A program made the translations under genes and the position numbers. From assembly GCA_025455885.1 (NCBI GenBank), contig JALOLR010000012.1, forward strand, positions 1-64,000: DNA of 64,000 nt, in the 5' to 3' direction. Numbering within the stretch: the first letter of the stretch is position 1; every line of letters starts with the position of its first letter. Of this stretch, positions 14,473 to 18,080 are shown in pieces. This DNA is from Acidimicrobiales bacterium (lineage in GTDB: Bacteria > Actinomycetota > Acidimicrobiia > Acidimicrobiales > Acidimicrobilacustridaceae). The notes under the pieces were generated by a model. The model searched no databases, was not told the DNA's origin, and saw only the letters and a list, made by a program, of their open reading frames with translations.

Positions 14473-15387
14473 GTGGAGTGGGTCGAGACCACAGGAAAGA
14501 CGCTGGAGGACGCCAAGGAGGCGGCCCTCGACCAATTGGGGGTGACCGAGGACGAGACCGAGTTCGAGGTCCTCGCCGAACCGAAGCAGGGCCTCTTCGG
14601 GCGCACCCGAGGTGAGGCCCGGGTGCGGGCGCGGATCCGTCCGGTGCAGCCCCGGCCCAAGGTCGAGCGCCGGGATCGCAAGCGTCGGGGCGGGAAGGCC
14701 GAGAACGGTCGCTCCCCGAAGGGTGCGAAGCCCACGTCGGGGAACGGCACCACGACCGAGCCCACCGAGCCCACCGGGGCCGCCTCCCCTGCCGAGGGCC
14801 GCCCGACCCGCGACACCGCGCCATCGGCCACCGGCGACGCACCTGATCGCTCGACCTCGGGTTCCTCTCGACGTCGTTCCGACACCACCAAGGGAGCTCC
14901 AGTGAGCGAAAGTGACCAGAACGTCGATCTCGAGGCCCACACGGCCATCGTCACCGAGTTCGTGATCGGGCTCGTCGATGCCTTCGGCTACGACGCGTCC
15001 GTCGAGGCCGACGCCCTCGACGACGAGAACGTCGAGGTCCGCGTCGACGGCCAGGATCTGGGTCTCCTCGTCGGCCCCAAGGGCGCCACTCTGGCCGCCG
15101 TCCAGGAGCTGTCCCGCACGGTCGTGCACCGCAAGGTGCCGGGCACCGCCGAGGGTCGGGTCAGGGTGGACGTCGCCGGCTACCGCCAGCGACGCCGCGA
15201 AGCCCTCGAGCGCTTCGTCGTGCAGGTGGCCGAGCAGGTGAGGGAGTCCGGTGTGGCCAAGGCGCTCGAGCCGATGGGCCCGCCCGATCGCAAGGTGGTG
15301 CACGACACCGTCAACGAGATCGAAGGAGTGGGCACGATCTCCGAGGGCGAGGAGCCCCGGCGCCGCGTCGTCGTCGTCCCCAGCTGA
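14473..15387 (+). CDS. jag: RNA-binding protein Jag/KhpB
   Basis: 304-residue RNA-binding protein. Three parts are visible: a Jag-N domain (residues 1-55, VETTGKTLEDAKEAALDQLG and EPKQGLFGRTRGEARVR), a long Pro/Thr/Ser-rich linker (about 60-150), and C-terminal KH (LLVGPKGATLAAVQELSR) and R3H (RKVVHDTVNEIEGVGTISEG) domains. KhpB/Jag binds RNA with KhpA and influences cell elongation and division in Gram-positives. GTG 14473 lies 8 bp after yidC, so it is cotranscribed. The linker is longer than in most homologues. Confidence 0.93.
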   Translation: MEWVETTGKTLEDAKEAALDQLGVTEDETEFEVLAEPKQGLFGRTRGEARVRARIRPVQPRPKVERRDRKRRGGKAENGRSPKGAKPTSGNGTTTEPTEPTGAASPAEGRPTRDTAPSATGDAPDRSTSGSSRRRSDTTKGAPVSESDQNVDLEAHTAIVTEFVIGLVDAFGYDASVEADALDDENVEVRVDGQDLGLLVGPKGATLAAVQELSRTVVHRKVPGTAEGRVRVDVAGYRQRRREALERFVVQVAEQVRESGVAKALEPMGPPDRKVVHDTVNEIEGVGTISEGEEPRRRVVVVPS

Positions 15388-15406
15388 CCACCTCACGCCG
15401 TCCTCC

Positions 15407-15433
15407 GAGGCCCGCCCGTCCGGGGCGGGCCTC
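15407..15433 (+). terminator. Hairpin after jag
   Basis: A perfect 11-bp stem GAGGCCCGCCC/GGGCGGGCCTC encloses GTCCG. It has no T-run. It lies between the jag stop and the convergent rsmG stop and could end transcription from both sides. Confidence 0.6.
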
Positions 15434-15446
15434 GTCGCGTCCGGGA

Positions 15447-15462
15447 TGTTCCACGTGGAACA
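15447..15462. other. parS centromere site (left)
   Basis: TGTTCCACGTGGAACA is a perfect 16-bp palindrome and matches the bacterial parS consensus TGTTNCACGTGNAACA. ParB loads here and spreads as a CTP-dependent clamp. It ends one base before the rsmG stop codon. Confidence 0.95.
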
Positions 15463-15463
15463 G

Positions 15464-16078
15464 TCAGAAGAGGGGCCGCTTGGCCGGCATCCCGTCCCGA
15501 CGGGGGTAGCGATCCGGGCACGGACCGGTGGCATGGAGGTGCTGGATGCCGTCGACGAGCTCGCCCCGCCGGAGGCCGAGCTCGGCAAGGCCCTCCTCGG
15601 GCCAGCGGGGCGGAGCGTCCGGCGGTTCGCTCACCAGCAGCAGCCCGTCGGGGCCCAGGAACCCGACGGCGCACTCCGCCACGACCCCCGGGGGGCCGAA
15701 GGACCGGGCGACGACCGCCTGATAGGCCCCTCGTTCGCCCGGGAGTCGGGCCACCACTTCGGCGCGGCCGTGCCGGGCGGTCACCCGGTCGGCCAGGCCC
15801 AGGCGGGCCACGGCGGTGTGCAGGACCTCGACGCGGCGAGCTTGCGCGTCGAGGAGGGTGACGAGGAGATCCGGTCGCTGCTCGGCGATCACCAGACCGG
15901 GGAGGCCGTTGCCCGATCCGAGATCGAGCACGCGGCCGGTCGTGTCCCCCAGGGCGTGGACGAAGCGCTCGGCGTGGGCGAGGTGGTCGGCGATGGGGCC
16001 CGGGCCGAGGGCCCCGATCGCCTGGGCCTCCTCGAGCACGGTGGTCAGGTCGGCGGACATGGGGGCACAGTGGGTCAC
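15464..16078 (-). CDS. rsmG: 16S rRNA (guanine-N7)-methyltransferase RsmG
   Basis: SAM-dependent enzyme that methylates G527 of 16S rRNA. The SAM-binding loop is RVLDLGSGNGLPGLVIAEQR, and the next motif, VTLLDAQARRVEVLHTAV, supplies the acidic ribose-binding residue. 204 residues from GTG 16078, or 198 from ATG 16060; neither has a good ribosome site. Loss of this enzyme gives low-level streptomycin resistance in other bacteria. Orientation is unusual: rsmG normally lies in line between jag and parA, but here it is on the opposite strand, with one parS site 1 bp beyond its stop and another 27 bp before its start. Confidence 0.92.
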   Translation of the reverse strand: MTHCAPMSADLTTVLEEAQAIGALGPGPIADHLAHAERFVHALGDTTGRVLDLGSGNGLPGLVIAEQRPDLLVTLLDAQARRVEVLHTAVARLGLADRVTARHGRAEVVARLPGERGAYQAVVARSFGPPGVVAECAVGFLGPDGLLLVSEPPDAPPRWPEEGLAELGLRRGELVDGIQHLHATGPCPDRYPRRDGMPAKRPLF

Positions 16079-16105
16079 CGACCCGGGCCGTGTCCACTCC
16101 GTCGC

Positions 16106-16121
16106 TGTTCCACGTGAAACA
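16106..16121. other. parS centromere site (right)
   Basis: TGTTCCACGTGAAACA matches the parS consensus with one break in symmetry. It sits between the divergent starts of rsmG and parA, 644 bp from the left parS and in inverted symmetry with it. Confidence 0.95.
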
Positions 16122-16243
16122 CGGTCGAGGGTCCTTGACCTGAGCCGGTGGCGGAGCGAGGATGGCCGCGGCTCGTTCCGGACCGGGGTGGGTCGTTCGG
16201 CGTCGGGGGTCGCCCGGCGTTCGCCTCACCTCCCGAGTGGTGC

Positions 16244-17209
16244 ATGGAACCCCTGGAACATCCGATCCCCGAGACACCGACTCGTCTCGAGCCCCTTGAT
16301 GAGCCCGCAGCCGAGTCTGCTGTCGAGCCCGACAGCCCGTCCGCCACGGACGCCGTCCCCACGGTGAGCATCCCGCCCGGCCTCCCCACCGAGATCGTCA
16401 CCGCCGGCACGCCGATCTCCCGGGAGCGGGACTTCCCCCGGGTGATCGCGGTGGCCAACCAGAAGGGCGGCGTGGGCAAGACCACCACCGCCGTCAACCT
16501 GAGCGCCTGCCTTGCCGAGCTGGGCTATCGGACGCTCGTCGTGGACCTGGACCCCCAGGGGAACGCGTCCACGGGGCTCGGGATCAATCCGCGCGAGCTC
16601 GAGTTCTCGATGTACGACGTGCTGCTCGCCGACACACCCCTCGAGGACTGCATCGAGGGCAGCTCGGTGCGCAACCTGTTCGTGGCGCCGGCCAGCCTCG
16701 ATCTGGCCGGGGCGGAGATCGAGCTGGTTCCCGCCTTCAGCCGCGAGCTGAAGCTGCGCAACGCCCTGGCCACCGTGCACGACGACTACGACTTCGTCTT
16801 CATCGACTGCCCGCCGTCGCTCGGTCTGCTCACCGTGAACGCCCTGGCTGCCGCCTCGGAGGTGCTCGTGCCCATCCAGTGCGAGTACTACGCCCTGGAA
16901 GGCCTCGGCCAGCTGCTGCGCAACGTCGAGCTGGTCCAGAAGAACCTGAACCCGTCGCTCGACGTCAGCGCCATCGTCCTGGTGATGTACGACGCCCGGA
17001 CGAAGTTGGCCGACCAGGTGGCGCTCGAGGTGCGGGCCCACTTCGGGGAGAAGGTGTGCCGGCAGGTCGTGCCTCGCACCGTGCGGTTGTCGGAGGCGCC
17101 GTCGTTCGGCCAACCGATCATCACGTTCGATCCGAGCAGCCGGGGCGCCATCGCCTACCGGCAATTGGCCAAGGAGGTCAGCGGTGGCGCGCCGAAGCGG
17201 GTTGGGTAA
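16244..17209 (+). CDS. parA: Chromosome-partitioning ATPase ParA
   Basis: Walker-type ATPase that moves ParB-parS complexes along the nucleoid. The deviant Walker A is NQKGGVGKTTTAVNLSACL, the switch is VVDLDPQGNASTGLG, and Walker B is FVFIDCPPSLGLLTVNALA. With ATG 16244 it has 321 residues, of which about the first 65 are an acidic Pro/Glu-rich extension before RVIAVANQKGG. A GTG at 16148 would add 32 poorly conserved residues. The last 26 bp overlap parB, so the two are translationally coupled. Confidence 0.95.
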   Translation: MEPLEHPIPETPTRLEPLDEPAAESAVEPDSPSATDAVPTVSIPPGLPTEIVTAGTPISRERDFPRVIAVANQKGGVGKTTTAVNLSACLAELGYRTLVVDLDPQGNASTGLGINPRELEFSMYDVLLADTPLEDCIEGSSVRNLFVAPASLDLAGAEIELVPAFSRELKLRNALATVHDDYDFVFIDCPPSLGLLTVNALAAASEVLVPIQCEYYALEGLGQLLRNVELVQKNLNPSLDVSAIVLVMYDARTKLADQVALEVRAHFGEKVCRQVVPRTVRLSEAPSFGQPIITFDPSSRGAIAYRQLAKEVSGGAPKRVG

Positions 17210-18080
17210 GGGACTGGGAGCACTCATCCCCACCGAGGACGGCGAGGAGGTCGCGGTCGACCGTCCCGACGCCCATCTCCGGGAGCTCGGGGTCGACCAG
17301 ATCGTCCCGAACCCGTACCAGCCCCGGCGGGTCTTCGACGAGGAGGAGCTGGTGAGCCTGGCGGCCTCGATCCGAGCCGTCGGTGTCCTGCAGCCGGTCC
17401 TGGTCCGCCCGGTGGGGACCGACCGCTTCGAGCTCGTCGCCGGGGAGCGCCGGTGGCGGGCCGCGCAGCGCGCCGGGCTGCGGGTCGTCCCGGCGGTCGT
17501 CCGTCCGACCGAGGACGTCCGCTCGCTCGAGCAGGCCCTCGTCGAGAACCTCCACCGCGCCGACCTCAACCCGCTCGAGGAGGCGGCCGCCTACCAGCAG
17601 CTGATCTCGGAGTTCGATCACACCCAGGAGGAAGTGGCCAGCCGGGTGGGGCGGAGCCGGTCAGCGGTGGCCAACACCCTTCGACTGCTCCACCTGCCCC
17701 CCGAGCTCCAGCGCCTCCTCCACGACGGCAGCCTGTCGGCCGGGCACGCCCGGGCCCTCCTGGGCTGCACCGATCCGGCCGTGCAGGAGCGACTCGCGCA
17801 GCAGGCGGTCCGTGAGGGACTGACCGTCCGCGAGGTCGAGGAGGCCGTGCGCCGATCCCAGGAGCCCGACGCGCCCGTCTCCCCGACGACGCCGGGGGTG
17901 GCGGCCGTGCGGCCCGCCGCGGTCCTCGAGCTCGAGGAGCTCCTCTCGGACCTGCTCGACACCCGGGTGCACGTCACGGTGGGCGCCAAGCGGGGGCGTC
18001 TCGTCGTCGACTTCGCGACCCTCGAGGACCTCGAGCGGATCTCGCAGGTGATCGCCCGCGGCCCCCGGTCCGAGGGCTGA
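17184..18080 (+). CDS. parB: Chromosome-partitioning protein ParB
   Basis: 298-residue CTP-dependent DNA clamp that binds parS. The N terminus is the classic MARRSGLGKGLGALIP. The CTP-binding fold includes IVPNPYQPRRVFDEEEL and the arginine-patch motif LVAGERRWRAAQRAG. The central helix-turn-helix is TQEEVASRVGRSRSAVANTL. A dimerisation domain closes the protein. Two parS sites are 1-2 kb upstream. It ends just before a hairpin shared with the convergent cwlM-like gene. Confidence 0.96.
   Translation: MARRSGLGKGLGALIPTEDGEEVAVDRPDAHLRELGVDQIVPNPYQPRRVFDEEELVSLAASIRAVGVLQPVLVRPVGTDRFELVAGERRWRAAQRAGLRVVPAVVRPTEDVRSLEQALVENLHRADLNPLEEAAAYQQLISEFDHTQEEVASRVGRSRSAVANTLRLLHLPPELQRLLHDGSLSAGHARALLGCTDPAVQERLAQQAVREGLTVREVEEAVRRSQEPDAPVSPTTPGVAAVRPAAVLELEELLSDLLDTRVHVTVGAKRGRLVVDFATLEDLERISQVIARGPRSEG

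Follow-up and report, generated by a model that had tools for sequence, protein, structure and literature searches.

Organization of the rsmG Region

The window, i.e., the whole 64-kb stretch of DNA that was analysed, belongs to the genome designated here as G000, a draft assembly of 3.29 Mb in 33 contigs, the genus of which is referred to as g1. The region of interest comprises, in this order, jag (+), parS1, rsmG (-), parS2, parA (+), and parB (+) (Table 1). Neighboring genes of the locus were named by tblastn with the open reading frames of the window, and those that we take to be dnaA, recF, and dnaN are among them. The locus contains the components of a chromosomal ParABS system, namely a ParA ATPase, a ParB with N-terminal, HTH, and C-terminal domains, and parS sites in the vicinity, together with dnaA. 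The product of the reversed gene scores 60 bits against the GidB profile, compared with a curated cut-off of 27, as is characteristic of the RsmG (GidB) 16S rRNA methyltransferase.

Table 1. Positions of genes and predicted elements of the rsmG region, numbered from the first nucleotide of the window.
Feature	Position	Strand	Description
jag/khpB homologue	14473..15387	+	PF14804, PF01424 above cut-offs; left neighbor in normal orientation
GC-rich stem-loop after jag stop, 12-bp stem	15406..15434	+	Inverted repeat I10; terminator-like, no T-run
parS1	15447..15462		TGTTCCACGTGGAACA; predicted parS, 1 bp past rsmG stop
rsmG (gidB), inverted	15464..16060	-	PF02527, E 2.4e-16; ATG start preferred, GTG at 16078 possible
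Promoter-like element for rsmG	16067..16096	-	TGGACA-N18-CACTGT; 6 bp before ATG; putative
parS2	16106..16121		TGTTCCACGTGAAACA; predicted parS, 13 bp before element ahead of parA
Promoter-like element ahead of parA	16135..16163	+	TTGACC-N17-(N)AGGAT; conserved in family
parA	16244..17209	+	PF13614, 1.6e-66 (scanned as 16148-17209); ATG at 16244 from sequence
parB	17184..18080	+	PF02195, PF17762, PF23552

With a GTG start, rsmG would span 15464-16078 (-). The ATG is the more likely start, since in the congener G001 (locus L031), the only other genome of g1 in the sample, an ATG is preceded, likewise at 6 bp, by a comparable element (TGGACA-N17-CATTGT). The initial annotation placed one parS 1 bp beyond the rsmG stop, which is exact, and the other 27 bp before the start, which is exact for the GTG, whereas the distance from the preferred ATG is 45 bp.

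When up to three mismatches to the 16-bp consensus are allowed, parS1 and parS2 are the sole matches in the window, compared with a mean of 0.01 parS-like matches in 100 shuffled controls. With no more than one mismatch to TGTTYCACGTGRAACA, they are also the only two sites in all 33 contigs of G000. As a pair, they form a 17-bp inverted repeat with a 94% match, positioned at both ends of the rsmG segment.

The stem-loop that follows jag has a fold z of -2.67 in G000 and is separated from parS1 by 12 bp, as compared to 10 bp in G001. By a loose criterion, a stem is present behind jag in G000 and in 24 of the 30 other family genomes, G001 included, but in only six of the 31 genomes from other families of the order. 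A TTGACC-N17-AGGAT-like element between rsmG and parA is found in G000, in 26 of the 30 other family genomes (again including G001), but in only six of the 31 from other families. The spacing of 13 bp between parS2 and TTGACC is shared by G000 and G001 with G332 and G313, in which rsmG is collinear. A strict sigma-70 promoter scan of the rsmG region matched neither the rsmG nor the parA element, and a strict terminator scan of the region gave no match, the jag stem-loop included. Judging from their sequences, the stem-loop may serve as a terminator and the parA-side element as a promoter.

Orientation of rsmG in Related Genomes

In the relatives, rsmG was located by profile and the resulting loci were compared. 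The gene is collinear with its neighbors in 171 of the 172 relatives examined, the sole exception being G001, in agreement with the initial annotation, according to which rsmG normally reads with jag and parA and is found here on the opposite strand. Collinear genes are present in 29 of the 30 other family genomes and in all of those examined from other families of the order (31/31), other orders of the class (41/41), and other classes of the phylum (70/70). The gene-order comparison suggested in the initial annotation reveals no single orientation fixed throughout the class, but an inversion limited to G000 and G001, and no relative was found with an inverted rsmG that lacks flanking parS, since parS also brackets the gene in G001. 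We conclude that rsmG has truly been inverted, that this state is derived, and that the change is genus-level; it is a rare departure from an arrangement kept by those 171 relatives.

The family sample consisted of 37 genomes, of which the 31 with an rsmG match (G000 and 30 others) were all examined, and the remaining six were left out of the orientation count. The 72 loci from the class outside the family include 12 from one search and 60 picked among the best-scoring matches listed in another search, in which 263 of 296 genomes had an rsmG match. In seven loci, three from the family and four from the order, jag or parA is missing at the end of the contig or of the locus. The 70 genomes from outside the class were drawn from 127 with a match, as the 30 best and 40 further down; jag is absent from the stretch in 26 of them and parA in one. 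A second rsmG-like match of G017, located at a contig end (L003), was not counted. A scan of genome contigs with the RsmG of the window yielded only four distant matches, one in Phycisphaerales and three in Corallococcus, and no close relative. The six family genomes with no rsmG match (G008, G009, G013, G015, G319, and G320) have no parS either (≤1 mismatch), so that their assemblies may lack the locus altogether.

Since G000 is a draft of 33 contigs, an inverted order created by the assembly itself could be considered. Such an artefact is extremely unlikely, as the independent assembly of the congener has the same order in a contig of 868 kb.

The order in G001 is jag, parS, a stretch of 1.4 kb, reversed rsmG, parS, and parA. 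The proteins of the two congeners are diverged, with an identity of 53-54% for RsmG, 73-74% for ParB, and 85% for ParA, so that the inverted orientation they share is old. The 1.4-kb stretch lies between parS1 and the rsmG stop (L031, 12360-13778), and due to its presence the tight boundary between parS1 and rsmG is known from one genome only. A repeated or mobile element was considered for this stretch and rejected, as a comparison with the 37 family genomes gave only short matches, in six other genomes and none longer than about 50 bases; its seven open frames have no Pfam match.

Position of the parS Sites

The usual arrangement in the family is a parS pair behind rsmG. With up to one mismatch allowed, parS is located behind rsmG in all 29 collinear family genomes and between jag and rsmG in none of the 28 in which the jag side is visible. 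In other families of the order, parS is present behind rsmG in 28 of 31 genomes, before it in none, and three genomes show no site. At the same threshold, the gap between jag and rsmG is free of parS in all 59 collinear genomes of the order in which it can be seen; the 60th, G003, was left out of this count because its contig begins inside rsmG.

Whole-genome searches of the 37 family genomes (≤1 mismatch) found two sites in 24, three in two, four in one, one in four, and none in six. Exactly two are present in G000, in G001, and in 22 of the 35 other genomes. In 13 of the 29 collinear family genomes, the starts of two sites are separated by exactly 48 bp, and the position of parS in collinear members ranges from overlapping the rsmG stop to about 75 bp. 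The parS1 of G000, at 1 bp from the stop, is within this range. In G323, a second parS-like pair, 50 bp apart, is found on a different contig (C60); this genome has 6% contamination, and the pair may belong to the par locus of the contaminant.

Unlike in the order of the window, where parS lies between rsmG and parA, the site is mostly found between jag and rsmG in the remaining orders of the class (23 of 41 examined), and behind rsmG in nine of 41; it seems that parS changed sides of rsmG during the evolution of the class. In three loci of family f37, which has genomes of about 1 Mb (L071, L078, and L110), the parS sequence is part of the coding region of rsmG, at its 3' end.

Descent of the Inverted rsmG

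The RsmG proteins of G000 and G001 group with genera g4 and g12, both in a tree that includes rows from other families (support 98/93) and in a family-only tree with all 19 g12 rows (96/95). In the former tree, the two proteins are paired (96/93), but inside g12 (96/99), whereas in the latter neither their place in g12 nor their pairing is supported at 80. Both form long branches. In the tree of joined ParA, ParB, and partial Jag proteins, G000 and G001 are paired (93/92) and positioned beside g4 plus g12 (100/99); this tree rests mainly on ParA and ParB, since homology of the Jag pieces does not extend to every row, those of G000 and G001 aligning over 15 residues only. A vertical descent of the inverted gene is compatible with these results.

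Alternatively, rsmG might have been lost and then have re-entered in reverse between the parS sites, with either a relative or another part of the genome as its source. Such a history could be read from the one RsmG tree that puts the inverted genes among g12 rows, a position that the tree resting mainly on ParA and ParB does not give to G000 and G001. It is, nevertheless, unlikely, since that nesting is unsupported when all g12 rows are present, AU tests reject neither a g12 clade (p 0.20) nor one of g12 plus g4 (p 0.37), and parS1 lies as tight to the rsmG stop as it does in collinear relatives.

Mechanism of the Inversion

We consider it likely that a single inversion of about 0.65 kb, which took place on the stem of the genus, flipped rsmG together with the proximal parS; one event would then account for both congeners. 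The ancestral order would have been jag > rsmG > parS1 parS2 > parAB, and the flipped unit, self-contained between the stem-loop and the promoter-like element, would have consisted of rsmG and the parS located directly behind its stop codon. With the left breakpoint between the jag stem-loop and rsmG, and the right one between the two parS of the pair, the outcome would be jag > parS1 < rsmG parS2 > parAB. In such an arrangement, parS1 would represent the ancestral site closer to rsmG, moved by the inversion, whereas parS2 would be the one closer to parA, left in place with the element before parA. The jag stem-loop would have stayed on the jag side, and rsmG would now be read from a putative promoter in the divergent gap between rsmG and parA, beside parS2.

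The location of rsmG between two parS sites would thus result from the splitting of the pair. That the pair was split rather than added to is suggested by the two sites in each congener, a number shared with most of the other family genomes. The inversion was probably tolerated because it cut no operon: jag ends in a stem-loop of its own, and parAB has a separate promoter-like element located after parS2. The spacers are too diverged for placing the breakpoints. In the 27 genomes of the family and order with two or more parS and with the element on the parA side, the interval from one outer parS to the other makes up a median of 31% (12-95%) of the room in which a right breakpoint would spare both parS and that element. 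Since about a third of uniformly distributed breakpoints sparing parS would land there, finding parS at both ends is not much of a coincidence once an inversion is given.

Another conceivable ancestor had only one parS, of which the staggered breaks of an inversion made a second copy, so that each end received one; four of the 29 collinear family genomes indeed have one parS (≤1 mismatch). This course of events is very improbable and needless, as G004, G014, and all 19 examined genomes of g12, the sister group in the joined-protein tree, already have at least two.

In the initial annotation, it was proposed that the palindromic parS sites themselves acted as short inverted homology, and that the segment was flipped by recombination between them, possibly reversibly. 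The inverted repeat that they form and the bracketing of rsmG by parS in both congeners are in keeping with this proposal, which nonetheless appears improbable. It requires a prior state with parS on each side of rsmG, and the jag side is free of parS (≤1 mismatch) in every one of the 59 collinear genomes of the same order in which it is visible. Among the 102 loci of the class set, none has parS on both sides of rsmG within 400 bp; eight of the 70 genomes from other classes do have such sites, and rsmG is uninverted in all eight. Flanking parS are therefore neither likely to be ancestral here nor enough to flip rsmG. Furthermore, a 16-bp site offers little length for homologous recombination. 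Reversibility gains no support either, as the same orientation is shared by the two diverged congeners (n=2).

We can speculate that palindromic parS near the origin, bridged by ParB, act as breakpoints that aid short inversions, the flip of rsmG being one product of a process that perhaps still occurs at low frequency. Although the probability of such a role seems slight, it would mean that centromere sites reshape their own neighborhood. The split of an ancestral pair by one inversion remains our preferred reading, and we regard what is seen in g1 as an ordinary rearrangement, most likely with one parS carried along, in an interesting setting.

Comparison with Known Systems

Invertible DNA segments, as in site-specific phase variation, consist of a short segment located between inverted repeats. 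The rsmG segment of G000 has the same layout, although its repeats are 16-bp predicted ParB sites, and, unlike in such systems, the same orientation is found in both genomes of g1 (n=2). A live genetic switch has no support so far, and the segment looks like a single old rearrangement instead. A literature search on parS with rsmG or gidB did not list any account of rsmG being inverted at parS. The arrangement in g1 indicates that the two sites of a parS pair, for which distances of tens of bases are usual in the family, can come to lie about 0.66 kb apart (2.1 kb in G001). It also decouples rsmG from parAB with neither being lost, and thus provides a natural test of parS spacing and parAB expression.

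The chromosomal ParABS system of the phylum (jag-rsmG/gidB-parA-parB) is similar to that of G000 in its genes, in its parS consensus, and in its place beside yidC, rnpA, and dnaA. In G000, however, rsmG points the other way, and the two parS of the pair lie on either side of the gene. The part of a study of the mycobacterial gidB-parA-parB region considered here (PMC2346475) describes two parS in this stretch, as in G000, and promoters upstream of individual genes; in M. bovis BCG, a parS overlaps the -10 hexamer upstream of gidB. According to the same source, the mycobacterial sites precede parB by about 1.75 kb and by 0.9-1.0 kb; from these distances, they probably lie on both sides of gidB. 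In contrast to G000, all eight ORFs of the mycobacterial region are described there as divergent to dnaA, and hence they are mutually collinear (PMC2346475).
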